From contig NZ_CP095481.1 in assembly GCF_023023025.1 (NCBI RefSeq), positions 5,283,001-5,347,000 of the forward strand: a DNA stretch of 64,000 nucleotides, given 5' to 3'. This DNA is from Amycolatopsis sp. WQ 127309. GTDB lineage: Bacteria > Actinomycetota > Actinomycetes > Mycobacteriales > Pseudonocardiaceae. Below the pieces are notes generated by a model. The model saw nothing but the letters and a program-made list of their open reading frames with translations. It had not been told where the DNA came from and made no database searches. The position numbers and the translations under genes were made by a program. Position 1 is the first letter of the stretch; each line of letters begins with the position of its first letter. Shown in pieces: positions 1 to 16,204 of the stretch.

Positions 1-1510
1 GTTCGAGCTCGTCCAGCTGCCCGTAGGAGACCGCGCAGGCGCCGGCGGCGCGTCCGGTCAGCCCGGGTGCGTCCCGCCACGGTCCCGACTCGTCGAGCAG
101 CGCCGTCAGTTCGCTGAGGGACCAGGACCCGTGCAGCCGAAGTTGCGCGGCCAGCATCTTGATGGGGAGCGGGACATAGCCGCACCGCACCACGAGGCTG
201 TCGACGAGCGCCGACTCACCTCGGACCCGATCGGCGCCGACGAGGCCGTGAAACAGCTCGATGGCCGCCTCGGGCTGCAGCGGTCCCAGCTGGATCTCGT
301 CCGCGATGTCGAGACCTCCGGTTCGCCGGCTGGTGACCAGTGCGGCACAGCCGGGCTCGATCGGAAGGAGCTGCTGTGTCTGCTCTTCGCCCGCCGCGTT
401 GTCCAGCACGACAAGGGTGCGTGTGCCCGCCAGCGCAGCCTGGTAACTGGCGATGCGCTGACTGATCGTCGGCGGGTGTTGTTCCGGCGGGACCCCGAGC
501 GCCGTCAGCAGGCCGGCCAGCGCGTCCTCGGTGGTCACTGGGGCCACCTCCGGGGTGAAGCCGTCGAGCTGCACCAGCACCTGCCCGTCGGGGAAGCGCT
601 CGCGCAGGAGGTAGGCCGCTTGGACGGCGAGCGCGGTCTTGCCGATCCCCGGCATCCCGCTGATCCACAAGGTCGCCGATCGGTGCGCGGCGGCTGCGAC
701 GAGCAACCGCGACTCGATCCTCGCCAGTTCGCGCCCTCGACCCCCGAAGCGGGGCGGCCGGCTGGGCAGCAAGACGCGCCGCCCGCTCAGCTGAGCGAAT
801 TTCGCCAACCGCCGCAGCTCGACCGGGACGTCCATACCGTAGTCATTGAGCGCCGCCCTGGTGTCGTGGTAGACGTTCACCGCCTGTACGCGGTCGCCGT
901 TGGCCACCAACGCCCGCATCAGCAGCCCCGCGAGCCGGTGCCGCGTCGGCTCGGCACTCACCAACGACTGCAGCCGATCGCGGACCCACCGGTGGTTTCC
1001 TTCGCCGAGCTCGAGCTCGGCGAGGTCGCCCAGGACGTCGATGTACGCCTCTTCCGGTGAGAACAGACCGGTCGAGCCGACGCGGTCGTGGTCGAGGTCC
1101 TCCAGGTACCGGCCGCGCCACAGTTCGGCGGCCTCGCGCAGCAGCGCGAGCCGCCGGGCACGGTCGGCGCAGTCGTGTGCCCGGTCACGCAACGCGAGAA
1201 ACCGCTCGAGGTCGATCCGCTCGGGCGCGATCCGCAGCACGTAGCCCGTCGCGACGCGGTCGATCACCGGCCGGTCGGTCTGCTCACCCCGCTCGAGGAT
1301 CTTGCGCAAGCGAGCGATGTAGCCGGGGACCAGGTTGGTCTTCGGCTTCTCCACCCCGTTCCAGACGATGTCGGTGAGCCGTTCGGCCGATATCGCGCGG
1401 TTCGCGTGCAGCACGAGGACGGCAAGGATGTACCGCTGCTGTAAGTCACCGAGTTCGACCGGTTGACCGCTCGTTCGCAGTTCGAACGGCCCCAACAGGC
1501 GTACTTCCAT
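1..1510 (-). CDS. SARP/AfsR-type transcriptional regulator with NB-ARC ATPase domain (C-terminus beyond window)
   Basis: Reads leftward from ATG at 1510, with AAGGAG upstream, and is still open at position 1. Residues about 1-95 look like an OmpR-type winged helix (start MEVRLLGPFELRTSG, later RAISAERLTDIVW). Residues about 95-245 look like the bacterial transcriptional activation (BTAD) domain. An NB-ARC module follows with P-loop GMPGIGKT and a hydrophobic strand TLVVLDN suitable for Walker B. This is the AfsR layout: a SARP activator whose binding is gated by a STAND ATPase. It is divergent from the VWA gene at 1791, and the shared region holds two triplets of 11-bp-spaced repeats. Inference: it regulates itself, the VWA gene and perhaps the operon at 11007. 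Any C-terminal TPR sensor lies outside the window. Confidence 0.9.
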   Translation of the reverse strand, partial: MEVRLLGPFELRTSGQPVELGDLQQRYILAVLVLHANRAISAERLTDIVWNGVEKPKTNLVPGYIARLRKILERGEQTDRPVIDRVATGYVLRIAPERIDLERFLALRDRAHDCADRARRLALLREAAELWRGRYLEDLDHDRVGSTGLFSPEEAYIDVLGDLAELELGEGNHRWVRDRLQSLVSAEPTRHRLAGLLMRALVANGDRVQAVNVYHDTRAALNDYGMDVPVELRRLAKFAQLSGRRVLLPSRPPRFGGRGRELARIESRLLVAAAAHRSATLWISGMPGIGKTALAVQAAYLLRERFPDGQVLVQLDGFTPEVAPVTTEDALAGLLTALGVPPEQHPPTISQRIASYQAALAGTRTLVVLDNAAGEEQTQQLLPIEPGCAALVTSRRTGGLDIADEIQLGPLQPEAAIELFHGLVGADRVRGESALVDSLVVRCGYVPLPIKMLAAQLRLHGSWSLSELTALLDESGPWRDAPGLTGRAAGACAVSYGQLDELE

Positions 1511-1588
1511 GCCGTCTCCTTCGACGCGGTGTCATGACACTCTCAGTGAAACCGATCGCTCGGGGGATGAGAACACGTTCGGTTTGTG

Positions 1589-1669
1589 GTCCATTTTTCG
1601 TCCACTTTCCGTCCTTTCGTGACCTGAAGCGGAACTCGAGGTCCACCCGCGGTCCACGCTTGGTCCAAG
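1589..1669 (+). promoter_or_regulatory. two triplets of 11-bp-spaced direct heptamers (candidate SARP operator)
   Basis: Heptamers beginning GTCC start at 1589, 1600 and 1611 (GTCCATT, GTCCACT, GTCCTTT), and again at 1641, 1652 and 1663 (GTCCACC, GTCCACG, GTCCAAG). Each triplet has an exact 11-bp period. SARP regulators are known to bind direct heptamers spaced 11 bp apart, ending about 8 bp before a -10 element. A weak -10 (GAGACT, 1679-1684) lies 9 nt after the last repeat, facing the VWA gene. That the neighbouring SARP binds here is inference. Confidence 0.65.
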
Positions 1670-1790
1670 CCGGGATGTGAGACTGTCGGGGAGCGCCCGC
1701 AGGGACCCCCTCGAAGTGGGGCCTGCGGAGCGGCGGGCGAGTCCCGCGGTCGCGGTGAATCACCGGCCTTCCCCAGACGAGGAGAATCCG

Positions 1791-2444
1791 ATGTCCGATC
1801 GAATCCTGCCCTTCTACGTGGTCTGTGACGAGTCCTATTCGATGGCCGATCACCTGGACCTGCTGAATGACAGCCTCGATGATGTGTACCGGGTCGTACG
1901 CACGGATCCGGCCCTGGCCGGCCGGACTCGGCTGGGGGTGATCGGCTTCTCCCGGGAAGCCCGTGTTGTCGCGCCGCTCTCCCGCAGGGCGGAAAGAATC
2001 GGCAAGCCGGAGCTGAGAGGCGGCGCGGAGACCAATTTCGGCGCCGTGTTCACCACGCTCCGCGAAACGATCGAACACGACGTCGAGCGGCTCCGGGCAG
2101 AATCTTGTTCGATCTACAGACCCGCCGTGTTCTTCCTGTCCGACGGGCAGCCGACCGATCACGCGGACTGGCCCGCGGCCCACGCGAGACTCGTGGACCG
2201 GAGCTGGCCGGCTCGGCCGCGGATGATCGCGTTCGGCATCGGGGACGCCGACCGGGCGACGATGAGCCAGATCGGTACCTACCGCGCATACCTGAGCCGG
2301 ACCGGCGTGACGCCACGCCGCGTGATCCGCGAGTTCGCGAAAACGCTGGCCAGTTCGCTGTTCCTGTCCGGCGCGGCCGGAGACGACCTGCACGTGCCGG
2401 CCCAAGTGTCCGGTTTCACCGCGCTGGAGCGATCTTCGGTCTGA
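1791..2444 (+). CDS. von Willebrand factor A (TerY-like) domain protein
   Basis: 217 residues, almost all one VWA domain. ATG at 1791 follows GAGGAG; upstream in-frame codons have no Shine-Dalgarno and overlap the operator repeats. The MIDAS residues are visible: DESYS near residue 13 (the DxSxS motif), a threonine in AETNFGA near residue 85, and an aspartate in LSDGQPTD near residue 120. VWA proteins of this type are metal-dependent protein-interaction modules; TerY-like ones often sit with kinases, phosphatases or ATPases in stress and conflict loci. No phosphatase or kinase follows here. The gene is divergent from the SARP gene and convergent with the TIR operon. The exact role is unknown; an adaptor for the island proteins is inference. 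Confidence 0.85.
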   Translation: MSDRILPFYVVCDESYSMADHLDLLNDSLDDVYRVVRTDPALAGRTRLGVIGFSREARVVAPLSRRAERIGKPELRGGAETNFGAVFTTLRETIEHDVERLRAESCSIYRPAVFFLSDGQPTDHADWPAAHARLVDRSWPARPRMIAFGIGDADRATMSQIGTYRAYLSRTGVTPRRVIREFAKTLASSLFLSGAAGDDLHVPAQVSGFTALERSSV

Positions 2445-2812
2445 GCCCGGAGCCGAACGATCCCACTCGATCGCCGACGCCGACGGCGAGGGCGGCTGCC
2501 GGCGGCGGCACTGATCAGCGCGGGTCGTGGCGCAGCTACCGCGGTGACGCGTGCGGATGTGCCGCGCCGGCAGCGGGAGCAGCGGTAGGACACCGGCGGA
2601 AGTCTGTCGAGAAGCGACTTGGACCACAGCTGCGGGGATTGCCGTCGATCCGACCGCGAGCCCGAGGCCTGCGATCTCGGACGGACTTCCGTCGGCCGTC
2701 CGCCAGGCAGTTGCAGACCGTCAGTGACGATCCGAGCTGTCGTCACACCCCAGCGAAGATGATGGCTGACCGAGAGGACCTCGACGGAGAAGGAGCCCGG
2801 GGAATGACAGGT
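2445..2812. other. intergenic stretch without a supported gene
   Basis: 368 bp between the convergent ends of the VWA gene and the TIR gene. All six frames are open only in arginine/serine-rich shadow fashion, with no recognisable domain or ribosome site. A degraded remnant of a VWA partner gene is possible, but I could not align any stretch to a family. Confidence 0.6.
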
Positions 2813-5250
2813 TCACGAAATCCGCGCTGACCCCAGCGATCGCAACAGCAGCGACATCCCGGCCGCCCAGTCAGCTGAAAGGTCGACGTGGTGGATCTGC
2901 TCGTCGAGCGTCCGGCCCGGGCCGACGGCCAGCTCAGGCAGGGCGCACGGCCCGAGGAGCACGGGGATGAACCACTGCCGTCCTTGTGGCATCAACCGTA
3001 GCCGCTCGACCGCGGTGATGAGCTCCTCGTTCATGTACGAGACATCTTTGCTGGCATAAGCGGCGGAAAGCACCCGATGAAATAGTCGCCGGCCCGGATC
3101 GCCTTCTTGATCTCGGATCGCCACACCTGACCGGCGAGCAGGTGTGTGCGGTCCATCCAGACGTCGAACCCGTGCTCGCCCAGCTCCGTCACCAGACGGT
3201 CGACCGTCGAGCTGTCCTCCCGCACATAGGAAACGAAGATCCTCTTCCGGCTCGGCAATGGAGCTCCTTCCTCGTCTCGGACGCCCGGATCGGGCGCCGG
3301 AACCTGAGCAGGCGGCCGCCGGGTGCCCGCTCGGCTCGTGGTGTTCAAGTAATCCTGCGCATCCCGTTCTTGGAGGCGGAGCTGGACTCGGAGCCGGACG
3401 TCGGCGACGTCGAAGACGGCGACGCTGTCACCCCCGACGACTTCGTGTCCGGGAAGGTGGGCACATGCCTCGACGCAGTCGATCAGGATTCCCGTCTCCA
3501 GGCCCTCTGGCGAGTCGCCCAGTCCCGAAGCCCGGGCCGCCGCATCCTGCAGGAAGAATTCGTTCCAGAGCGCTGTGGCCAAGCCTGCTTTGACAGCGAA
3601 CAGGTGGTCGTGGTGACGTACGGCATCGGCTGTGAGGGTGGCCAGCCGTTCCCAGGTGCGTTCGCTGCCACCCCGGCGCCCGGCCAGCGCGGCCACCAGT
3701 TCGCGAGCCGGCGCGCAGGCATCTGCACCGCTTTCGGCCGCGATCAGCAGATCCAGCGATGGGACGCATCCCCGTCGGCCGTCGCTGAAGATCTCCGCGT
3801 GTTCGTCGAGGTTCGGTGGTTCTCCGGCCGTGTGAGCCAGGGTGGTCAGCTCCTTCGTCCGCCACGATCGGTGGGGCCGGTTCCGGTCGGTACCGATCCA
3901 CCGCGCCACTGCTCGCGCGATCGGGTCGTGTGCGGCCTGCTCGCGCAGCCGCGTGTGGATGGCATCGCCGGCGTCGGGATCGAGCTCGTAGCAGCTGAGC
4001 GCGTGTTGGACGAGTTCGCCGGCGAACAGGGGCGGCCGCACTCGTCCCGATGCCCATGCCTGCTCGATGCCCAGTGCGGCCTCCAGCCCGCGCTCCAGGT
4101 GGTCTCCCAGCAACTCGGGCCGGTCGGGAAGGTGCACCGGGCGGACGGCACCGGCCAGCAAGGTGTCGGCGACTGTGGTGGGGACCGGCGAAACGATGGG
4201 TTCTTCGCACCATCGCGGGCTGGTGTGGCGGCGCTGGGCACCCGGGGTCCGGAAGCGCACCGGCAACACCGGATCGACCGCACCGTCCACGATGTCGATC
4301 ACCACCGCCACGTTGACCCCACCGCGGCGCTGTTGCTCGAGCCCGGTCGCACCCAGGGGCGCGGTAACCAGAGCACGGTTGCCGTCCGTCGACATCGACA
4401 GCTCCCGGACTGCCAGCGGAAGGCCGTTCGACGAGGCGATGTCCGACCGTTGTTCCATTGACCCGGTCGAAACGTCGTAGTCGTGGATGACCAGCCGGCC
4501 GGTCATCGGCTCGACAGTGGTCACCGTCATCGCGTTCGCCCCGTTTCCCGGGTTCCACCCGGCGCCCACCGACCTGAAGGGGAGCGGGACCACGATCCCG
4601 TCCGCCAAGCCCACCAGGTAGTTGGCGCCGCCGATCCAGTCGCACAGGTGCAGCCACAGGCCGTCACTGCTGTAGGTCAATTCGACGTGGCTCAGGGGCC
4701 ACGCCGGAGGCAGGTCGACGACCCGGCGTCGTTGCCCCAGCGCGAGGTCGTACTCCCAGAGCACGTACTTCGCCGCGTCCGGCAGCGCGGCAAAGCGGCC
4801 GAGGCGCTCGTCGAGCACGCAGACCTTCCGGCCGTCCGGCCGCCACGCGACCGGTCCGGCCGAGCAACCGGGGATCTGCAGCCGGGACTCCGGCTGACCG
4901 AACTCCTGGATGTAGAGCTGACGGTGGAAGTGTGGTTCAGCCGGGTAGGGGGACCCACCGAGGAAACTCAGATGGGGTGCGTGCGTGCGGACGAAGTCCG
5001 TGCCTGTCGGGAACCCGAGCGCTTCCGCTTGCGGCGATCGGCAGAATGCCCAGGCACCGCCAGGCAGGTGGGGTGCGCCCATCCGGTCCGAGTAGCACGG
5101 ATCGGTGACTGGCCGGCCGCCTTCGTCGACCACCACCGATGCCGCGGCGTGGCCTCGTTCCTCGGCGACGGCGAAGAACACCCGCAGGTCGCTGTGGGAG
5201 TCGTTGGAGTGGTCGACGATGATCGTCTCGCCGGTGACGACCGTGCTCAT
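2813..5250 (-). pseudogene. beta-propeller-like protein with C-terminal TIR domain, broken by a single-base frameshift
   Basis: Starts at ATG 5250, overlapping the preceding stop (ATGA). The N-terminal part (about residues 95-290) has propeller-like strands such as GPVAWRPDGRKVCVLDE, ELTYSSDGLWLH and SMSTDGNRALVT. A long alpha-helical middle follows, then a TIR domain from about residue 715 (KRIFVSYVREDSS, DVWMDRTHL). After GDYFIGCF the frame is lost at the three-A run 3067-3069 (plus strand) and stops at 3031. One extra base there restores SAAYASKDVSYMNEEL and a complete 812-residue protein ending at 2813, including the glutamate expected at the TIR active site. Without the correction the product lacks the TIR C-terminal half. 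Last gene of the operon. The break may be real decay, a sequencing error or recoding. Confidence 0.75.
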
Positions 5251-6201
5251 CTTCGTTCCTCCGGGATCTCGTGTTCGCCGAACAGTTCTTGTGGCGACGC
5301 GTTCCGCCAGAGGACCGTCCGGACGTCGACGTCCGGTGCGGCTGCGGTCAGGTCGGCCAGCGCTTCGAGGTAGAGCGACGGATCGACGCCCGCGTCCTGG
5401 CACGCGGTTGAGATCGTTCTCAGGCGGTGGGTGACTTCCCGGACCGAGGCGCCCACGTCGGCGTCAGGGTCGACTTTCCGTACGTTTCGCAAGGTCCGCA
5501 CGTACAGGTCGAGCACGGCTCCGTCGCGGCGTCCGTGTTTCAGAGCGAGCATTCCGCCGGCCGCGATCGACTCCGGTGAACCGTTGTGTGCTCCCACGTC
5601 GTCCGCGAACCGTTGCTCGCCTTCAGCCAGCCAGGTCGAGGACGGCTCGATTTCGAAGGTGGCGCGTGGAGCTCGGGAAACCCGGCCGGCGGCCGCACTG
5701 ATCTGCGACAGGTGTTCTTCGGCCGCCGGTGCCAGGCCAAGGAATACGGGCTCGGGCTGTCGGTCACTCGCGTCGACGCACCACTTGGCGAGCCAAGCCC
5801 ATAGCGAGCGGTGCCCCGGATAGGGCTGAGCGCCCGGGGGGAGACACGCATCGGAACCGCCTGTCCAGTCGTGGTCGAGTCGGAACGTCCCCTGGATCGC
5901 CCGGGTGGCACGTCATTGTTACGGCATTCGCCCGATCGGATGTCCTGACTGCTTCCGGGGTGAAGGTGCCGATCCATCACTGCGCTGCCCGCTTGCCCGG
6001 ACCGACGACCGTGATGCGTTCTTCGCGGCTGCCGCGTCGGGTAAAGCGTGGAACCGGAGCTCTGCCCCGGAGGACTCCGAGACGCGGACAAGCGCAGGTT
6101 TACCCTGATAACCGATGACCGAGAACCAGCTGGCGGTTGGTCGCTGCCGCGTCTTGCAGGATCGGGAACAGGTGGCCGGCGAGGTCACGTGCGTCAGGCA
6201 C
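5247..6201 (-). pseudogene. unknown protein gene with several frameshifts and one internal stop
   Basis: A GTG at 6201 lies 16 nt after the CHAT stop and opens MPDARDLAGHLFPILQD. Coding-like sequence then moves between frames: near 6102-6126 to GYQGKPALVRVSESSG, near 6012-6040 to ITVVGPGKRAAQ, through a TGA at 5977-5979 into WIGTFTPEAVRTSDRAN, and at the CCCC run 5889-5892 to GTFRLDHDWTGGSD, which stays open to the stop at 5247. The intact final portion has about 224 residues with no upstream start codon in its own frame; a GTG at 5597 would give only 116 residues. The stop overlaps the next start (ATGA). I recognise no family. Position suggests a partner of the CHAT or TIR proteins. Confidence 0.6.
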
Positions 6202-6217
6202 CGCTGATCCGTCCCGG

Positions 6218-9200
6218 TCACGGGCCGACGTGGAGATAGGGTGCCCACATGCTCGGTGTGCCGGGGTGGCGGTTCCGCAAGGCACGTACGGCTGCGTGGA
6301 GCGCCTTCGCTGATCCGGCGGCGTCCAGCTCACCGTCTCGGGCGAGCGCGTCGTAGACGTCGCGGGCGACCCGGACGGTGGCCGTGTCCGCGACCGACCA
6401 CAGGGTGCCTATCACGTGCCGATAGCCGGCGAACTGCATACCCGCGGCGAGGTTGATCGCCTCTTCGGGCAGCTTGCTGCCCCCGACGGCGGTCTCGCAC
6501 GCACCGAGGAAGGCGAATTCGGCGTTGGCAGCGCTGGGAGTCCGGGTGAGGTCGGCCACGGTGAGCCGGTCGTCGAGGAGGACCAGTCCGCCCTGGTAGG
6601 GCGCGTCGAGGTCCTGAGCGCCGTGGCAGCCGAAATGCACCCACGCGTGCCCGGCGAGCTGCGCCAGCACGGTCGCCCGGGTCGCGTACTCCGGTGGGAT
6701 GGTGGTGTGCCGGGGAAACAGCCGTTCCAGCCGCGCCCTGGTCCGGCCCACCCCGGGTACCGTGCGTGCGCCTGGCGTGCGCGGTGTGGCGACCACCAGC
6801 AGGCTCCGGCGATCCGGCGCCGGATCAGTGGCTCCGATGGCACGGCACAGGGCCTGCACGGTCGGTGTGTAGGAGGAGACGACCAGGTCGAGCACCGAAT
6901 CGGTCTCGTTGCCTGCTGCGTGTAGCGGCAGGAACGTCAGCAGCCCGCTCGGGCACCACCAGATCCGGTCGGGCCGGTCGAGCTCCGTGAGCACGGGTTC
7001 GGCGATCGTGTCCCACATCCAGCGCAGGGTCTCCGACATCGCGACCTGCAGGTCGGCGCGCCCGTCTCGGTCGCCCACCTCGCCCAGGGACCGCAGCAGG
7101 GACGCGTGCTTCTCGCCCCGGAGGGTCGTCTCGCCGAGCGTCAGTTCGGGGAGTGGGACGACTTGGGGTTCATCGAGGCCGGAATGCAGCACGAGGGCGT
7201 CGCAGCGCCACGCGCTGACGTTGATCAGCACGACGGGACCGGCCTGCGCGGCGGTGCGCAGTTCCGCGAAAGCCGCCGCGGTGAGGAACGACTCGAACCC
7301 GGGAATCGAGCGGACTCGTCCCACCAGGTCATCCCACTCACTCGCCCACGTGACACGCGCATCACTGGGAAACGGCTCAGTTCCGGCCTGGTCGTCCCGA
7401 TCGAGGGCCGTGCCGACGTCTTCAAGCCTGCGAGCCAGTTCGGGAGCCACGTCGGACAGCAACGACAGGTCGGTGCGGGTTTCCAGGAGCTGACTCCAGA
7501 GCACGCCGCGGCCGAGCTCGAACAGCTCGACCGCCGTGGCCGGTTCGCCCGCCGCGATGGCGGCGGCGACCGCCCTGCCGGTCAGGGTCTGCCAGTCGCC
7601 GAGCACGCGTTCCCGGGTGTTCTGGTCCACACCCCGCCACGCGACGCGTGGTAGCAGTTCCACGGCGGCGGCGAGTCCGGGCAGTCCGGTTGCGGGGTCG
7701 CCGGAGACCGCGATCTCGTAGCGGCCCCAGCGATTGGCGGCGTCCAGGCGCAGGTGTGGAGGTGCGGCGGAGAGGGCGTGAGCATCGCGTGCTGTCGCGG
7801 CAGCGAGCCGGGCGTCCGCCGGATCGCCGGTCAGCTCGTAGCGATCGAACCGGGCGATCGACAGGTTGACCAGCCGCTGCGCCCGGTCGCCGGCCGTCGC
7901 ACTGTCCTGAATGGATTCGCGGAGCAGGTCGATCGCCGTGTCCAGGTCACGCGGATCGGTGCTGAGCTGGTGCCTCAGGTGGTAGGCGGCGCCGAGGTTG
8001 CCGACAGCCGCGGCTCTGTCGGTGTGGTCGGGCGGGTACAGGTCGAGCGCCTGGTGCGTGCTGGCGATGGCCTGGAGCAGGTCGGCCGGGTCGGCGGTGC
8101 GCTGGTAACGGGTCTTCGACACCGAGGCGAGCCCCAGCAGCACCGCCTCGCGGTCCATGGGCTGGTCGCTCGCCGCGGCTGCCGAGATCTCGACGAGGGC
8201 CTCGTCCAGGTCGAGCGTGTCCTGGGTCACGCCGTGGCGCAGCAGCCGGTACCCGGCGAGGTGCGCGAGGTTCGTCGCGTACTCGGGGTGCCCCGTGGGC
8301 ATTGCCCGGACCGCTTTCGCCGTCAGGTCGATCGCCTCGGTCACGTCCTCGAGTTGACCGTACTGGTCGAAGCGGTACGACAGCGCCATCGCCAGGGCCT
8401 GCTGGCTGCGCGCGAACTCGGGCGATCCGGCGGGAGAACCGGCGACCGCCGAGCGGAAGACGGCGACCACATCGTTGAGCAGGGCCAGGTCGCCGTCTCG
8501 CATCCACTGGGAGAGCAGCGCGTTGCCGAGCGTGATCTGGGTGGAGGGCAGTACGACGAACAGGTCGTGCGGGAGCTGGACGGCGTGGCGGAGGGTGGTC
8601 ACCGACTCGTTCAGATCCTGGTCGAGGTGCGTGACGAGGTAGCGGCTGAACAGGATTCCGCCCAGCATCGCGAGTGCGGCTGTGTGCCCCGGTCCACCGG
8701 GGTGGGTGGCAGCGAACGCGGTGCGCGCCGCGTGCACGGCGTCGTCGTACTCCGCGCGGGACCGCCGCAACTGCGCCCGCTCCCGCATGGTGCTCGCCAG
8801 CACCACCAGTCTCTGGGAGTGGTGCGGCCTCCCCTGCGGGGTACCAGCCGACTCGGCGAACCTCGCGATGGCCTCGTCGAGATCGTTCTGGTGACTGCGG
8901 AAGCGGTACCGGTCGAGCAGGCCCATGCCGAGCATGTATTGGAACTCGGGCCGGTCGGGGTGTCCTTCCGGAACAGTGCCGAGCGCCTGCCGGAGGAGCT
9001 CGATGACACGTTCGACGGACTCGGGCATGATCCGAGCCGCGGTGTGGGCTGCGTTGACCAGCTCACCTCGGTCGGAGGCGGACCAGGAGCGCGGGAACAG
9101 CGGGTCGAGGTCGGGTGCCAGTACCGCGAGCTTGTTCTCCGGCACCAGGGAGGGGTCATGGCCGGCCACCGCGGCGAGGATTGCCAGCCAGTACTGGTAC

Positions 9201-9430
9201 CGCAGGTTGTCCCCCTCCGCGTCGAGCATCATCCCGCAACGCAGGTGCCAGTCGGCGACAGCACGCAGCACTCGCGGCGACGCAAGGTTGTCGGGCGACT
9301 CCAGCCGGGCGGCAGCGAGCAGTTCAGCCACCATGTCTTCGGCGTCGAACAAGCGGCGATCGCCCGTCGCCTGGTCCCACGCGGCGAGCACCCCCGCCAA
9401 CCGGGCGTGCAGGTCTCCCGCGCGGCTCAC
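6218..9430 (-). CDS. TPR-repeat protein with C-terminal CHAT (caspase-like) protease domain
   Basis: 1070 residues from GTG 9430, which overlaps the upstream stop (GTGA); earlier starts would run deep into the ATPase gene. The first roughly 700 residues are tetratricopeptide-like helices, for example EYATNLAHLAGYRLL and AAAVGNLGAAYHLR. The CHAT domain fills the last 290 residues. The expected catalytic pair is present: histidine in HFGCHG (about 936) and cysteine in GACETA (about 978). CHAT proteases of bacteria are peptidases, some activated by sensors in defence systems (known for the family, including gasdermin-cleaving and Craspase-type enzymes). The intact dyad means it could be active. 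The substrate is not evident; no gasdermin-like gene lies nearby, although the adjacent unknown gene is a candidate. Confidence 0.88.
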   Translation of the reverse strand: MSRAGDLHARLAGVLAAWDQATGDRRLFDAEDMVAELLAAARLESPDNLASPRVLRAVADWHLRCGMMLDAEGDNLRYQYWLAILAAVAGHDPSLVPENKLAVLAPDLDPLFPRSWSASDRGELVNAAHTAARIMPESVERVIELLRQALGTVPEGHPDRPEFQYMLGMGLLDRYRFRSHQNDLDEAIARFAESAGTPQGRPHHSQRLVVLASTMRERAQLRRSRAEYDDAVHAARTAFAATHPGGPGHTAALAMLGGILFSRYLVTHLDQDLNESVTTLRHAVQLPHDLFVVLPSTQITLGNALLSQWMRDGDLALLNDVVAVFRSAVAGSPAGSPEFARSQQALAMALSYRFDQYGQLEDVTEAIDLTAKAVRAMPTGHPEYATNLAHLAGYRLLRHGVTQDTLDLDEALVEISAAAASDQPMDREAVLLGLASVSKTRYQRTADPADLLQAIASTHQALDLYPPDHTDRAAAVGNLGAAYHLRHQLSTDPRDLDTAIDLLRESIQDSATAGDRAQRLVNLSIARFDRYELTGDPADARLAAATARDAHALSAAPPHLRLDAANRWGRYEIAVSGDPATGLPGLAAAVELLPRVAWRGVDQNTRERVLGDWQTLTGRAVAAAIAAGEPATAVELFELGRGVLWSQLLETRTDLSLLSDVAPELARRLEDVGTALDRDDQAGTEPFPSDARVTWASEWDDLVGRVRSIPGFESFLTAAAFAELRTAAQAGPVVLINVSAWRCDALVLHSGLDEPQVVPLPELTLGETTLRGEKHASLLRSLGEVGDRDGRADLQVAMSETLRWMWDTIAEPVLTELDRPDRIWWCPSGLLTFLPLHAAGNETDSVLDLVVSSYTPTVQALCRAIGATDPAPDRRSLLVVATPRTPGARTVPGVGRTRARLERLFPRHTTIPPEYATRATVLAQLAGHAWVHFGCHGAQDLDAPYQGGLVLLDDRLTVADLTRTPSAANAEFAFLGACETAVGGSKLPEEAINLAAGMQFAGYRHVIGTLWSVADTATVRVARDVYDALARDGELDAAGSAKALHAAVRALRNRHPGTPSMWAPYLHVGP

Positions 9431-10407
9431 CGTTCTGCCAGCAGGTTGAGGGAGGTCTTCACCAGCGCCCGCGCCGACGCGGGGATCGAGACGGCGTCCC
9501 CGCTGGTACCGACCGACAGAACCGGTGCGGCCAGCTCCAGCCCACGGGTGAGCTGGTCCACGACGTTGGCCGACCCGGCGCGCAGAGCCTCGGCCAGCAG
9601 CGCGAGCTCGTGTTCGATCGACGCCCACTGCGCCGGGTCGAGCTCCCACTCCAGCAGATCGGTCAGCACGTCGGCAGCGTCCTCGTACACCTGGTCGGAC
9701 CTGGCCGTGACGACCCGAGCCGCACCGCGCACATACGCCGGCCGGTCGGCCACGAGTTGGGCGGTCGCTGCCAAGTCCCTGGCGAGCAACGCCGTGACGG
9801 GCTCGACGTCGCCATCGGCCAGCGACGTCGCGAGCACGGTCAGCAGGCGGGCGCGGTCAGTGTCGCGGCCGGCCCACGCGTCCAGGAGTGCCAGGGGTGC
9901 ACGGGTGTCACCCACGCCGGTGAGCAGTGGCAAGACCGTGAGTTTGCCCCGCCCGAACGGGAGCTGGTCGCGGACACGGCTCGCCTCGGTCGCCAGGCTC
10001 GCCACCGAGCCGGGTTCACCCGCCAGCACGAGAGTGTCGGGGAGTTGCGCGAGGCAGATCCCTGTCGCGTCGTCCAGGCCCGAGCCCGCGTCGACCACGA
10101 CGTGGTCGTAGGCCGACCGCCAGGAGGTGGCGCAGTCTTCCAGGTGCCAGCCAAGACCGTGGTCGGCGTACAGCTCGTCGAGATCGGCTGTGCGGCCCAG
10201 CCGAACCACGTCGGGCGCACCTGCACCCGGCTCCGGGTAGCTCGCTGGCTCGCGCCCACCCGCGTCCGCGTACTCCGGCAGGATTCCTCCGGGCCCGGAC
10301 ACGGCCTCGACCAACAGGGTCCGGTAGCCCCAGCGGTGCAGTTGCGCGGCGGCCCGAGCCGCGAAGACGCGCTGGCCGAGCGCGGAGGAGTGGAACGCGG
10401 TGATCAT
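9427..10407 (-). CDS. MinD/ParA-like ATPase of the KGGVGR-variant type, with degenerate P-loop
   Basis: 326 residues; ATG 10407 directly follows the TGA of the TIR gene. The N-terminus has the strand-loop-helix pattern of SIMIBI ATPases, but the loop reads FHSSALGQR instead of the KGGVGRT of related conflict-system ATPases, so the usual P-loop lysines are missing. A Walker B-like VVVDAGSGLDD (about residues 107-117) and the strand DTLVLAGEPGS are retained. The C-terminal third is helical. The gene is translationally coupled on both sides, so TIR, ATPase and CHAT are probably made together. It may bind nucleotide weakly or act as a pseudo-ATPase scaffold; family assignment rests on fold pattern and context. 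Confidence 0.65.
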   Translation of the reverse strand: MITAFHSSALGQRVFAARAAAQLHRWGYRTLLVEAVSGPGGILPEYADAGGREPASYPEPGAGAPDVVRLGRTADLDELYADHGLGWHLEDCATSWRSAYDHVVVDAGSGLDDATGICLAQLPDTLVLAGEPGSVASLATEASRVRDQLPFGRGKLTVLPLLTGVGDTRAPLALLDAWAGRDTDRARLLTVLATSLADGDVEPVTALLARDLAATAQLVADRPAYVRGAARVVTARSDQVYEDAADVLTDLLEWELDPAQWASIEHELALLAEALRAGSANVVDQLTRGLELAAPVLSVGTSGDAVSIPASARALVKTSLNLLAER

Positions 10408-11007
10408 TCACAGCTCCAGACGGGGGAGCGTCGGACGTTGTGGTACGAGGTCCTTGGGCCGGAACACCAGCCAGTTCGCCTGCCACGCGGGCACGTGGTC
10501 GAGCAGTTCAGCCAGCTCCTGGGCGACTTTCTGCACCTGCCGGTGCAGTTCCAAGAACTCCGGGGAGTCCTGGTAGGTCAATCGGCCGACGGTGACATGG
10601 TGCAGGTTGACCGCCTGCCGCAGCAGTGCCTGCTTGGGGAAGTGCCTGCCGTCGGCGAACACGACGGGGTAGATGAGCCCGCGGTCGTCGTGCCGGCTCG
10701 CCCGACCGGCAACTTGCTCCCTGGCCGACATGGTGGTCAGCTCCGCCAGGCACCACGGCGACTGGAAGTACGGTGGCGACCACACGGCGACAAGCAGCCG
10801 GCTGTGCCGCAGCGCCCGTTCCAGCCGCGCGGGCCAGTACGTCCCCGTCTCCTGCTCGACGTCGAGGAAGATGCGCGGTGGGGTGGCGAGTTCGTCGGCC
10901 AGGCAGTCGCGCAGCAGCGGGTGGAAATGATTGCGCACCCATTCGCCAGCCAAGCCCGCTCCCGATCTGCGGTAGCTGAGAAAGATGTCGTACTCGTAGT
11001 CCGGCAC
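10408..11007 (-). CDS. TIR domain protein
   Basis: About 199 residues, nearly all one TIR-like domain. Beta A reads YDIFLSYRRSG. A loop with IFLDVEQETGTYW follows, then LVAVWSPPYFQSPWCLAEL, whose glutamate sits where TIR NADases carry their catalytic residue, and a C-terminal region ending LPRLEL. GTG at 11007 is preferred because GGAGGGG lies 9 nt upstream; an in-frame GTG at 11043 lacks such a site. First gene of the five-gene operon, and the only apparently intact TIR gene of the window. TIR effectors of defence systems cleave NAD or make cyclic ADP-ribose isomers (family knowledge); activity here is inferred only from the retained glutamate. Confidence 0.82.
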   Translation of the reverse strand: MPDYEYDIFLSYRRSGAGLAGEWVRNHFHPLLRDCLADELATPPRIFLDVEQETGTYWPARLERALRHSRLLVAVWSPPYFQSPWCLAELTTMSAREQVAGRASRHDDRGLIYPVVFADGRHFPKQALLRQAVNLHHVTVGRLTYQDSPEFLELHRQVQKVAQELAELLDHVPAWQANWLVFRPKDLVPQRPTLPRLEL

Positions 11008-11073
11008 TGCCCGCCGCCCCTCCACGTGCTCTGCTCGACGCACGATAACCCATCCGGAGGGATGCCCGCTGGG

Positions 11074-11102
11074 CTGTCCGGGATCTGTCCGGAATTTGTC
11101 GT
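11074..11102. promoter_or_regulatory. three 11-bp-spaced heptamers upstream of the TIR-CHAT operon
   Basis: CTGTCCG at 11074, CTGTCCG at 11085 and TTGTCGT at 11096 (plus strand) repeat with an exact 11-bp period, 31 to 67 bp before the candidate starts of the TIR gene. The geometry matches the repeats at 1589-1669, although the sequence is shifted relative to GTCCA. No convincing -10 lies 8 bp away. Candidate SARP-family site. Confidence 0.5.
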
Positions 11103-11134
11103 GACACTGGTGTCTCGGTCCATTGCCGCACGTA

Positions 11135-11610
11135 TTATTTCGGTGCGGTGACGCTGCGATGAGCGGAGCGTTGCAGCTGATGCCGAACGCAGGATCGGTG
11201 CGATCCGGCCGATCGCCTGCATCCGGTTTTCTTGTCCGCCGCCAGGACCAACGTGTTCTCCGTCAAAGCCTCGTACAAACTGATGACGTCACGGACTTTG
11301 TCCACGAACTGAGGATCAGTCGACAATTCCAGGCCCGTGATCGAGGCCATCAACCCCGTTGGCCAGTGGGTATCTTTGCCCGGTGTTCCTTCCGAGTCCT
11401 TGGTGATCGCCTGCTTGACCCGGTCGGGTGATGAACCGCGGCCGTCCCGGCCGCGGTTCGTCCGGCAGGCCTTCCCGTCGGCCGGTCAGGAACTCCAACG
11501 CCACTTGGAAACCATGTCCCGGGAGACGCAAGACCTGCTGCTCCTCGTCGGACCACACTACCGGCGAACCAGCTACCTGATCCGCCCCACGGTGAGGCAA
11601 CCGGACGACA
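11135..11610 (-). mobile_element. IS630-family transposase remnant
   Basis: Fragments in three frames, in transposase order on the minus strand: VSRDMVSKWRW (helix-turn-helix, about 11500-11530), LTGRREGLPDEPRPGRPRF, VKQAITKDSEGTPGKDTHWP, LSTDPQFVDKVRDVISLY, ENTLVLAADKK and finally QAIGRIAPIL. These match the IS630 pattern: SKW helix, DEPRPG linker, STDPxFVxKV block, LVLxxDEK and QALDRTAPIL. The segment between THWP and LSTDP is shortened and at least three frameshifts are present. No intact transposase or terminal inverted repeats are visible. It sits between the TIR operon and the SEFIR-NACHT gene. Confidence 0.8.
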
Positions 11611-11633
11611 TCCCGCCGACGGCTTGACCGGCT

Positions 11634-14340
11634 TCAATCTTCAGGTGTGCCGGCGAAGTGGTCCTGCACCACCAGGTGCCGGAACTGGGTCGCGGTACCG
11701 GAGAGCCGGAAGATCCCGGCACCGTAGGCCCAATCGGCGAACTTGTCCGGGCGCCGCGGCAGCTCGCCACGGCGAGCCATCCCGCGAACCGTCAGGAAGT
11801 GCTGAAGGAAGAGCGGAAAAGTGCTCATGCCCACAATGAAGAACGAAAGTACGACAGAAGAACCTATCATCATGGCCTCGACCGAGGTCAGTACGCCAAG
11901 AATCAATGGCGCAATGACCACGACCGCCATTGCGACGAGTGAAGACGCTAGCACATAGGCGGCCACTCCGAGCCTGTTCTGCCGCAACGGATCGCTGGGT
12001 CTATTCGTAATGTTGTGTGGAACGGTCAAGGCGTCGAAGACCTGCAGTGTGACCCCGGGTGCAATCCCGAGAGGCGAGAATATCACTATGCCAGCCATCA
12101 TGAATCCAATAAGTCCGACTACAATACTGGCATGATGGGCTGCCGCGATCTCTCTGCCGGGAGGCAGTGATCCATACAGTGTGCCCAGTAGCGCTCCCGC
12201 TGTCACGCTACTTAAGAACACTTTTCTAATTCCGCGAGAAAGACGTGCTCGACCTTTTAGTGTACGAATGTACCGCAGATTGATTTGCGGCGCCTCCCGG
12301 CCGGGAAATTTGGTCGGCGTATAAATCAAGAAACATGCCAGGAAAAAGAAAAGTCCCACGCCTGCAGCCAAAGACCAGCCCGGACGAGTGTCCGGCACCA
12401 GCCGAGAACCGATCAGCTGTGGGATGACGGCAGCACCGGAAGCCAGGAGTGCTGCCTGGCAACGGATGCGCAAGCCCGGCCGTCGTGGTGAGCCGGTGGT
12501 TCGCCACAGGTCGCTCAGGTAGAAGTCCGTCGCCGACTCTCCCAGCTTCACCATGCGGCCCAGGTGTGCGGCGAGCGTCCGCAGCCAGCGGTCGACCTCC
12601 GCGGCGTCGTACCGAGTACCGTCCGGGCACACATGGTCCCTCGTGATCGCCGGAACCAATCTGCTGAACAGGTTGTTCTCCAGGGCAGCCCCATTGAGCC
12701 CGCACATCTTGGCCGGAACGGTGGCGGGGTTGCGGTAGACCGTAACGGCGAGGTAGAGCCGAAGCGGGGACTTGAGGCAGCGTGCGAGGTCGCCGTCCGG
12801 ATCCTCGCGCAGCGCGGCCGCGACCGGCCGCCAGCGGGCCTGGATACCGTCTTCCGCGTCGGGGTCGGGGTCGGGAAAGCGGTGGGTAAGCCACGCGACG
12901 ACTTCACCGGCTTCGAGCGGCTGCACCGTGACGGCCCTGACGTGCTGCAGTGCGTAGTCGGGATCGGTCTCGTCGCCCTCGATGATTTTGTTGTGCTGGG
13001 CCGTGCGGCACGTCAGGACCCCTCGCCACTTCACCCGCCCCAGCGTGACGTTGAGGGCGGACAAGACGCGTCGGGCCTTCAACGGAAGGCCGTCTTCAGG
13101 GTCGATTTCGTCCAGACCGTCGAGCACCGGGATGATCCAGTCACCCTTGACCAACGCCTGAGCCGTGGCCTGCTTCACCCCGTAGACGTTTGTCAAGTGC
13201 TCCGCGATCCACGCGTCCAGCCGGGCCCGGACGTCGACCGGTGGAGTCTCGGCATCGGGCACTGCGAACGCCGACAAGCTCAGCCGCAGCGGTACCGCCT
13301 GATCACGGCCGGTGGCGAGGGAGTCGGCCGCCAAGTCCAGCACCAGCTGGATGGCGAGGACCGTCTTGCCCGCGCCGGGTGCGCCCAGGATTCAGGAGCC
13401 GCTCCGGATCGAGGTCCTGGTAGTAGCGGCTGATCGTCGACAGTGACCCGGCGGTGGCGGTGGTGTTGTCCGGGCGCCATCGCACCAGCGACGGCAGGAA
13501 GCGCACGTCGGCCGGCTGCGGGTCGCCGGTGTCGCCGAGCAGCCGCTGCAACGTCCGGCTTTCGGTGGTGACGATCTCCTCCAGCAACGCGCGGGCTCGC
13601 AGCGCGAGCACCGAGCGGTCGTCTGCCCGGGGGCGTGCACGGAAGCCGTGCACCTGCAACGCAAGGCCTGCGCCGACCGCGACAAGACCCGGCACCCGGA
13701 CGTCGGGCGTCGTGGCGAGCAGCAGTCCGGCAACGAACGTGACCAGCCCCGCGACCGCGGGCAGCCACGCCCGCCGCGGCCACGTCGGCACCGGAACGGT
13801 GACCGTGGCTCTGTGTTCTGGTGATGGAGGAAGGCGAGCGCCCAGCGGCGGCGCCGGATGGACCGGCCGGCCGGTCAGCATCCGCAGAAGGTCGTCGACG
13901 CCGTCGCGGGTCAGCTTCGCAACGGCGACGCGCGAGGCGGAGTGGGGCTGCAAGAGGGCGGGGATCTCGCCGATGGAGCGGCCGGGCAGGAGTACCGGCA
14001 GCACGCTGACCAAGCCGTCGTCACCGTCGGCGTGGACGCGCTCCTTGATGAGCTTCCATTCGGTGCGGATCCCGCGGTATACCTCCGCGGAGAGGTCGCC
14101 GTCGCTGAGGGCGCGGTAGGCGGGCGAGGCGATGACCAGGACGTAATCGCTGCGCTGGACCTGTCTGGCCATCCAGTCGACCCAGTCTTGGCGGACGTGC
14201 GTGTCGTACTCGTCGATCCACGCGTCGACGCCGTTTTCCCGCAGCAACTCGCAGAGCCGCCGGACTTCACGGCAGTGGGCGGAGTTTTCCTGGGCGTAGG
14301 AGATGAACACTTTCGGCACCCGCGTGTTCTCCCCGATCAT
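11634..14340 (-). pseudogene. SEFIR-transmembrane-NACHT-transmembrane protein, frameshifted at the Walker A motif
   Basis: ATG at 14340. Residues about 8-140 form a SEFIR/TIR-like domain (KVFISYAQENSAHCREV, DAWIDEYD, SDYVLVIASPAYR). A hydrophobic pair follows near 195-235, then a NACHT-type NTPase. At 13391-13392 (plus strand TT, minus strand AA) one extra base shifts the frame: the upstream reading ends at 13303, whereas removing the base continues ERLLILGAPGAGKT, a Walker A motif, into VLDGLDEID (Walker B) and a complete 901-residue protein ending at 11634. The C-terminal half contains about six hydrophobic segments. SEFIR-NACHT fusions are sensor-effector proteins of conflict systems. The break hits the nucleotide-binding loop exactly. 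It could be decay, a sequencing error or a slippage site. Confidence 0.78.
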
Positions 14341-14710: not shown

Positions 14711-16204
14711 ATGACCGAGACACAGGCACCCAGGGCGTACCAGATCCGCACCTTCGGCTGCCAGATGAACGTCCACGACTCCGAGCGCCTCGCCGGGCAG
14801 CTCGAAGAGGCCGGCTACGTGCCCGTCGACAGCGGGGCCAAGCCCGACCTCATCGTGTTCAACACCTGTGCCGTCCGGGAGAACGCGGACAACAAGCTCT
14901 ACGGCACCCTCGGGCACCTGCGGCCCGACAAGACCGCGAACCCGGACCTGCAGATCGCCGTCGGCGGGTGCCTGGCGCAGAAGGACCGCGGGGAGATCGT
15001 CAAGCGCGCTCCCTGGGTGGACGTCGTGTTCGGGACGCACAACATCGGGTCGCTGCCGGTGCTGCTGGAGCGCGCGCGGCACAACGCCGAGGCCCAGGTC
15101 GAGATCCTCGAATCCCTCGAGACCTTCCCGTCGACGCTGCCCGCGCGCCGCGAATCGTCCTACGCGAGCTGGGTGTCCGTTTCGGTCGGCTGCAACAACA
15201 CCTGCACCTTCTGCATCGTGCCCGCCCTGCGCGGTAAGGAACGCGACCGGCGGCCCGGCGAGATCCTCGCCGAGGTCGAGGCGCTCGTCGCCGAGGGCGT
15301 GCTCGAAGTCACGCTGCTCGGCCAGAACGTGAACTCCTACGGCGTCGAGTTCGGCGACCGGCTGGCGTTCGGGAAGCTGCTGCGCGCGACCGGCGCCATC
15401 GACGGCCTGGAGCGCGTCCGGTTCACCTCGCCGCACCCGGCCGCGTTCACCTCCGACGTGATCGACGCGATGGCCGAGACGCCGAACGTCTGCCACCAGC
15501 TGCACATGCCGCTGCAGTCCGGGTCCGACCGGGTGCTGCGCGAGATGAAGCGGTCCTACCGCTCCGCGCGCTACCTGAAGATCCTCGACGAGGTCCGCGC
15601 GGCGATGCCCGACGCGGCGATCACCACCGACATCATCGTCGGCTTCCCCGGCGAGACCGAGGAGGACTTCCAGGCGACCCTGGACGTCGTCGCCGAGTCC
15701 CGCTTCTCCAGCGCGTTCACCTTCCAGTACTCGAAGCGCCCCGGCACGCCGGCCGCGACGATGGCGGGCCAGCTGCCCAAGGAGGTCGTCCAGGAACGCT
15801 ACGAGCGTCTGGTCGAGCTGCAGAACCGGATCTCCTGGGACGAGAACAAGAAGATCGTCGGCCGCCGCGTCGAGCTGCTCGTCGCCGACGGCGAGGGCCG
15901 CAAGGACGCCGAGACGCACCGGATGAGCGGCCGCGGCCGTGACGGCCGGCTGGTGCACTTCGCGCCGACCGGACCGGCCGTGGACCGCGGCGTGCGGCCC
16001 GGCGACATCGTCGAGACGGTCGTCACCTACGGCGCGCCGCACCACATGGTCGCCGACGGGGACCTGGTCTCGCACCGGCGGACGCGTGCGGGCGACAACG
16101 CCGAGGCGGGGCTGCGGCCCAAGACCAACGGCGTCACGCTGGGCCTGCCGGGCTTCGGTGCCCCGGCGGTCCGGCCCGAACCGGTGAGCGGGTGTGCGTT
16201 GTGA
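14711..16204 (+). CDS. miaB: tRNA-2-methylthio-N6-isopentenyladenosine synthase MiaB
   Basis: 497 residues with the complete methylthiotransferase plan. The N-terminal domain has three cluster cysteines (C17 in FGCQMN, C53 in NTCAVR, C87 in GGCLAQ). The radical SAM core has CNNTCTFC (C161, C165, C168). A C-terminal TRAM region follows. The enzyme methylthiolates i6A37 in tRNAs reading UNN codons, acting on the product of MiaA, whose gene lies 2 kb downstream. The extra C-terminal tail of about 40 residues (after TRRTRAGDN) is typical of actinobacterial members. Its stop overlaps the GTG of the next gene (GTGA), indicating coupling. Confidence 0.97.

Follow-up and report, generated by a model that had tools for sequence, protein, structure and literature searches.

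The nearest described relatives of the locus treated here belong to two kinds of bacterial conflict system. In the TIR-KGGVGR pair (NCBIfam NF047398), a TIR gene of one family precedes a gene for a ParA/MinD-like ATPase of the KGGVGR type, and many members from Pseudonocardiaceae carry a CATASP domain at the C-terminal end of the ATPase. CATRA systems, whose original paper is said to be that of Burroughs and Aravind in 2020, have a TPR-CHAT protease that works together with CATASP, which there is a small separate protein. The Pfam families concerned are PF20269, PF20270 and PF20271, and Pfam describes CATASP (PF20271) as CATRA-associated. CATRA is mentioned among caspase-dependent ternary conflict systems in one published account (PMC8195603). 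The locus lies at the left end of a 64,000-nucleotide stretch of Amycolatopsis sp. WQ 127309 DNA (C1:5283001-5347000 of a single-contig genome of 11.13 Mb), which is termed the window, and it shares parts with both systems. The host is a soil bacterium with antibiotic-producing relatives. From sequence comparison, the locus is best read as a hybrid: a TIR-KGGVGR module whose ATPase is dead has been combined with a protease arm of the CATRA type, and a recurring pair of genes for a SARP regulator and a VWA-domain protein lies alongside. The combination appears to be new; no published account of SARP, TIR, ATPase and CHAT together was found in a literature search that reached few subscription journals.

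The core consists of three genes on the minus strand. The TIR protein, 199 residues with a GTG start at 11007, is encoded at 10408..11007 and matches Pfam TIR_2 above the cut-off. It is followed by a KGGVGR-type, MinD/ParA-like pseudo-ATPase of 326 residues with a C-terminal CATASP domain (9427..10407; Pfam, profiles, alignment and a structure model), and then by a TPR-CHAT caspase-like protease of 1070 residues (6218..9430; Pfam CHAT and alignment with 7zoq). An earlier note on this DNA had described these genes as coupled, and the junctions agree: the TIR stop codon TGA stands directly beside the ATG of the ATPase gene, and the ATPase and CHAT genes overlap by GTGA. Residue Glu89 of the TIR protein, in a WC..E motif, is invariant across a 31-row alignment. 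Metagenomic TIR proteins with 50-55% identity (P0003-P0014) also exist. The CHAT domain scores 132 bits (Pfam cut-off 24), and the TPR match in the same protein is below its cut-off (15.3 vs 24.2 bits). In the 7zoq alignment the CHG motif, with His936, and the GACET motif, with Cys978, match up with those of solved TPR-CHAT proteins. We take these two residues and the TIR glutamate to be catalytic. The type III-E craspase protein Csx29 shares the CHAT region and the His/Cys motifs (7zoq, 23.9 bits; NF041237, 36 bits, cut-off 300); however, the operon differs and no CRISPR partner is present among the nine island open reading frames scanned.

The earlier note's identification of a degenerate MinD-like ATPase is borne out. 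The match to AAA_KGGVGR (NF047398) is weak, 22.9 bits vs a cut-off of 90, the alignment reveals no P-loop, and the predicted model has a ParA/MinD-like fold. Nevertheless a KGGVGR profile from which the protein had been left out gives it 127.5 bits. The CATASP domain is fused at residues 243-323 (about 9439-9681) and scores 41.8 bits with PF20271 (cut-off 29) and 44.8 bits with a CATASP profile. Compared with the TIR-KGGVGR pair, the locus has the same TIR family, the TIR-then-ATPase order and the C-terminal CATASP, but its ATPase lacks both the P-loop and a weakly TIR-like middle part. Thus it has the gene order of the module, and neither the P-loop nor a score at the NF047398 cut-off. A search of a 5.8-billion-protein set returned only the protein itself, among the 7997 candidates sharing most words with it; its relatives were therefore collected by searching genomes and with profiles.

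Conservation of the TIR-ATPase pair was assessed in 77 GTDB loci around TIR relatives, of which 65 were counted (L113-L177, TIR match at least 129 bits); the other 12 (L178-L189) have weak TIR matches of at most 55 bits. A KGGVGR-type ATPase gene lies downstream of the TIR gene in 64 of the 65, the exception being L174, where the locus ends before any ATPase. The TIR and ATPase genes may accordingly be regarded as one unit, as the earlier note had proposed. The loop KGG(V/T)GR is intact in 62 of the 65, with L173 and L175 reading KGGTGR and L114 and L117 degenerate. Hosts include Pseudonocardiaceae, Streptomyces, Frankia, cyanobacteria, an Anaerolineae bin and proteobacteria. Degenerate ATPases also occur in L093 and L094, where the ratio of non-synonymous to synonymous substitution rates (dN/dS) is 0.25; selection therefore keeps such pseudo-ATPases elsewhere. 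The two degenerate loci with the same TIR family as the window are from Actinokineospora fastidiosa (L114, 9573-10634) and Amycolatopsis rifamycinica (L117, 8953-12136). In the latter the frames after the ATPase look interrupted by eye, and end in a second TIR-like segment.

The genome of the host also holds an ordinary copy of the module at 7.84 Mb (L095, 8237-14312). The gene order there is TIR, a 544-residue KGGVGR ATPase, a 209-residue protein and a 1062-residue HerA-like ATPase, with a divergent bSEFIR-like gene; the 209-residue and HerA-like genes thus stand where the window has CHAT. The L095 ATPase scores 147.5 bits (cut-off 90) and has CATASP at its C-terminal end, and its middle part is weakly TIR_2-like, at 17.5 bits, below the cut-off. 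The other modules of the genus that were examined with it (L223-L230) likewise have the 209-residue gene and a HerA-like ATPase of about 1030 residues. Parts of the ordinary module, and the SEFIR gene of the window, match candidate defence models (PDC-M28B, HerA, bSEFIR). SEFIR-matching genes lie near the module in 6 of the 15 loci L093-L107 and in none of the eight loci L223-L230. The ordinary module with its 209-residue and HerA-like genes is itself a candidate for a defence system not yet characterised.

The CHAT gene behaves differently. None of the 65 TIR loci has CHAT beside TIR in the flanks examined, many of which end at contig ends, and none of 40 CHAT loci has a window-type TIR or ATPase; the CHAT profile was built from proteins of the genus and family, and the absence refers to CHAT of that kind. 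Relatives of the CHAT protein are found in 76 of 80 genomes of the genus (E<=1e-5, matches to TPR only included). The earlier note had proposed TIR, ATPase and CHAT as one machine, a reading to be refuted if the genes proved to occur independently. This is what is found for CHAT, which adjoins TIR and ATPase in the window genome only, and not for the TIR-ATPase pair. As CHAT is absent from the examined flanks of the TIR loci, and window-type TIR and ATPase from the CHAT loci, the trio looks like a hybrid.

CATASP provides the connection to CATRA. Where CATASP is found outside a KGGVGR ATPase, a CHAT open reading frame lies within the same 16-20 kb stretch in nine of nine loci; these loci were partly chosen for CHAT or CATASP matches and are not an unbiased sample, and further CATASP matches were left out of the set. 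A CATRA-N/C protein was found in all five of those tested for it (L054, L109, L110 and L111 left out). The CATASP frames of L054 and L110 are long, with roughly 450-500 codons from one stop to the next. The gene order in L052 is CHAT, CATASP and a CATRA-N/C protein with a SEFIR/TIR domain after CATRA-N/C. TPR-CHAT and CATASP are thus common to CATRA systems and the window, but the window CATASP is fused to a pseudo-ATPase and is preceded by a separate TIR protein.

The operon is accompanied by an AfsR-like SARP gene divergent from a VWA gene; domain matches and coordinates agree in this with the earlier note. The regulator, 989 residues in all, occupies 1..1510 on the minus strand and continues left to genome position C1:5281541 (Pfam, genome coordinates). 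Its 503 residues within the window match Trans_reg_C (38.2 bits), BTAD (75.4) and NB-ARC (34.1), all above cut-off. Like AfsR, the large SARP of Streptomyces, it combines SARP and NB-ARC parts and has direct repeats spaced by 11 bp at its candidate targets, but it differs in facing a VWA gene together with a TIR operon, and its NCBIfam AfsR match is below cut-off (218 bits for the 503-residue part vs 1430). The VWA-domain protein, 217 residues, is encoded at 1791..2444 on the plus strand, with an ATG at 1791 and a likely ribosome-binding site found on inspection of the start; Pfam PF00092 scores 30.3 bits (cut-off 23.8).

The pair recurs in the genus together with the TIR-KGGVGR module. Relatives of the VWA protein at E<=1e-6 are present in 32 of 80 genomes, the window genome included, and 16 of 19 VWA loci (L223-L241) have divergent SARP and VWA neighbours; the other three (L232, L240 and L241, VWA identity 33-36%) have no SARP match. 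All 30 genomes with close VWA relatives are among the 57 of 80 that have the ATPase family (hypergeometric probability 1.6e-6, uncorrected for kinship), where a genome counts by its matches and an intact P-loop is not required of it. The VWA matches dropped from this comparison are those of G050 (E 1.9e-17, with an ATPase match) and G068 (33% identity, no ATPase match), and the ATPase matches dropped those of G008 and G078 (E 4e-4 and 9e-5); with the weak matches kept, 31 of 32 VWA genomes are among 59 of 80 ATPase genomes. In eight genomes the SARP-VWA pair and the TIR-KGGVGR operon lie together, the VWA and ATPase matches spanning 9.0-11.4 kb. Co-occurrence and proximity thus link VWA and SARP to the TIR-KGGVGR modules, as the earlier note had supposed for the window. 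The pair is often followed by a gene for a protein of about 300 residues without any Pfam match. No remnant of the gene that follows VWA in relatives was found in the window (best E 0.17, elsewhere).

According to a published account, SARPs bind direct repeats at a spacing of 11 or 22 bp (PMC10936776). Heptad and pattern scans of the window reveal three arrays on the plus strand with 11-bp spacing. Two are in the SARP-VWA intergenic region, GTCCA/GTCCA/GTCCT at 1589..1617 and three copies of GTCCA at 1640..1668, and the third, TGTCCGG/TGTCCGG/TGTCGTG at 11075..11103, is 68-96 bp upstream of the TIR start. The repeats which the earlier note had seen at both promoters are therefore present. Nine heptad triplets pass at this spacing in the 64-kb window; six of them, each containing GTCC or a portion of it, fall at 1589, 1639-1642 and 11075, and the other three are GC-rich runs. 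At the other spacings from 8 to 20 there are 0 to 36 triplets, with coding-like maxima at 9, 12, 15 and 18. The pattern GTCCRN6GTCCRN6GTC has 11 matches in the 11.1-Mb genome (1 for the reversed-pattern control), three of them here within 9.5 kb, and GTCCAN6GTCCAN6GTCCA matches exactly once in the genome, at 1640 (control 0).

Upstream of other TIR modules, TGTC-N7-TGTC is found in 12 of 85 regions where 0.5 are expected (Markov resampling, maximum 3 in 500). With near-duplicates removed the count is 11 of 65 (0.37 expected, maximum 3), kinship being uncorrected. For TGTC..TGTC, spacing 11 stands out clearly (12 of 85, the runner-up 4; deduplicated 11 of 65, the runner-up again 4), and GTCC..GTC has one peak at 11 and another at 12 (12 and 16 of 86 regions). 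Judging by the repeats, the SARP likely controls the SARP and VWA genes, and its control of the TIR operon is plausible.

Taken together, the core may be read, if tentatively and with somewhat less than even confidence, as a conflict operon, probably SARP-controlled, that derives from the widespread TIR-KGGVGR module and has lost the P-loop, kept CATASP and acquired CHAT as its neighbour. Operation of such a system can be envisaged. The AfsR-type SARP, with its STAND switch, would raise transcription of VWA and the operon through the 11-bp GTCC repeats. The pseudo-ATPase would serve as a scaffold that holds TIR, its CATASP domain docking onto the TPRs of the CHAT protease. TIR would then signal or act through NAD+ and release CHAT proteolysis, and proteolysis and loss of NAD+ would stop the growth of an infected or damaged cell. 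The VWA protein might be a peptide-binding adaptor or a threshold part. A more far-reaching proposal is doubtful: that CATASP is a portable domain which docks TPR-CHAT, so that the pseudo-ATPase would wire TIR to the protease in a two-effector machine (NAD+ and proteolysis) under SARP/STAND and VWA, as one instance of an Amycolatopsis-wide SARP-VWA TIR regulon.

Several observations weigh against a SARP-controlled operon of this kind. The docking of CATASP to TPR-CHAT is presumed, and the CATASP half of the ATPase model is of low confidence (predicted local distance difference test score, pLDDT, 45-59). The trio is seen in one genome only, and selection on it is unproven. Several neighbours are broken, so that decay could be under way across the entire island. 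At the TIR promoter the array runs opposite to the operon, where the TGTC-N7-TGTC of other modules stands in the operon sense, and the inverted orientation was seen in none of 85 other TIR upstream regions. The triple-heptad test was negative for the TIR upstream regions of 14 other loci, as it was for the SARP-VWA regions of the eight linked genomes; of 16 SARP-VWA regions, that of L231 alone passes. Outside these eight, the remaining 22 of the 30 genomes with close VWA relatives have no listed VWA match close to a listed ATPase match. Finally, L231 has the closest relatives of the window pair (SARP 62%, VWA 58%, and 63% for an XRE-type regulator), yet TIR, ATPase and CHAT all go unmatched within the 20 kb examined there, an argument against an obligate link.

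The principal rival explanation is that the TIR-pseudo-ATPase pair and the TPR-CHAT gene are chance neighbours, brought together by recombination, with no joint function, in an island that is being lost. This is on the unlikely side. In its favour, three neighbouring genes are broken, an IS630-like remnant is present, and CHAT relatives are common in the genus and lack window-type TIR or ATPase in the loci compared (the 76 of 80 genomes and 40 loci above). Composition is also in keeping with it. The G+C content at third codon positions (GC3) is 0.74-0.87 for the main island genes, left of a miaB-like gene at 14711, vs mostly above 0.9 for the genes to the right, and the same chromosomal stretch in another genome, G069, has low-GC3 genes and a CATRA operon. 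Against it stand the tight TGA/ATG and GTGA coupling, frames that remain open across 4.8 kb, CHAT and TIR catalytic motifs that are kept, and an ATPase that retains CATASP, a domain found beside CHAT genes.

It is improbable that the locus works like CATRA, with the degenerate ATPase replacing the CATRA-N/C protein, CHAT as the sole effector and TIR as the trigger. CATASP and TPR-CHAT are the shared parts, and the CATRA protein of L052 with its SEFIR/TIR domain shows that there are other loci where CHAT and CATASP are accompanied by a TIR-type domain. But neither CATRA-N nor CATRA-C was matched in the nine island open reading frames scanned, and the ATPase and TIR are by sequence kin to the TIR-KGGVGR pair. 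Least probable is a developmental or stress switch, in which SARP and VWA would use TIR and CHAT to trigger hyphal cell death at some stage, for while AfsR-type regulators have roles in metabolism and in the making of antibiotics, according to PMC10936776, and close VWA relatives in 30 of 80 genomes suit a genus accessory more than a sporadic defence island, the ordinary-module parts and the window SEFIR match candidate defence models and no more than a single genome has yielded the trio.

If the conflict-operon reading is right, the locus would be a case in which two suspected immune systems seem to have hybridized in nature, and CATASP would be a candidate for the joint at which sensors and CHAT proteases can be exchanged. 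Across many genomes of a single genus, an AfsR-type regulator and a VWA protein are tied to a TIR-ATPase system. This suggests that regulators known from the control of antibiotics may also run bacterial immunity.

The grouping of the earlier note was largely right, but several of the genes around the core look damaged. The gene which it had taken for SEFIR-NACHT has both parts recognizable, in two open reading frames with a frame change beside the NACHT P-loop. The SEFIR part (13303..14340, minus strand) scores 103.9 bits with PADLOC bSEFIR. The NACHT-like/transmembrane part (11634..13343, minus strand) has no Pfam match, and its frame contains a P-loop motif a short way upstream; both names, NACHT and P-loop, are presumptive readings made by eye. 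The gene thus has SEFIR in common with bSEFIR but continues into a NACHT-like/transmembrane part that is split off by the frame change. The large protein encoded at 3031..5250 on the minus strand (Pfam, frame inspection), described previously as propeller-TIR, has a partial C-terminal TIR (TIR_2 positions 1-58 of 122), which a frame change near 3.1 kb interrupts and which continues in another frame. No Pfam match to a propeller was obtained, and no relative at 1e-10 was found in 199 other genomes of the family, with five candidates scored per genome. The adjacent gene of the earlier note without assigned function is a 221-codon open stretch at 5247..5915 (minus strand, frame inspection) that is preceded by two stop codons and has probably decayed. 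As these three genes look broken, they are poor candidates for working parts. The frame breaks may be true decay or assembly error, one genome having been seen. Between the NACHT-like and TIR genes, at 11135..11353 on the minus strand, is a probable remnant of an IS630-family transposase, found by tblastn and without a Pfam match. It matches 184 plasmid records, and three of the ten listed are annotated as IS630.

Two other systems with TIR proteins were considered and set aside. For the FxSxx/VMAP ternary system, FxsC_Nterm (NF040588) scores 59.5 vs 130 bits, a distant relationship of the window TIR, and no MoxR or VMAP is present in the nine open reading frames. For Thoeris, there are weak TIR-level matches to ThcB4/ThsB only, and no effector match among the same nine.

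The conflict-gene region reaches past the left edge of the window. About 4-13 kb beyond it are two further TIR proteins (L006:12183-12782 and 6411-7535; 52 and 61 bits) and a 757-residue protein with a weak STAND-type match (L006 4175-6448). An XRE-type regulator adjoins the SARP gene outside the window (L006 14173-15480). In G069, the CATRA operon of CHAT, CATASP and CATRA-N/C-SEFIR (L052 6366-12924) lies between miaA-like and valS-like genes, and low-GC3 genes, including one for a radical SAM protein, are found upstream of miaB (L243 16134-19435); the miaA, miaB and valS labels of flanking genes are our own assumption from inspection. This chromosomal stretch looks variable.

Ten loci from Lentzea (L118, L120, L129, L131, L140, L153, L155, L157, L161 and L162) have a near-identical element of the type TGTCCAA...TGGTC...GCCCACTTTTTTGTC about 75 bp upstream of TIR. 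This sequence conservation suggests a conserved regulator of the ordinary module.

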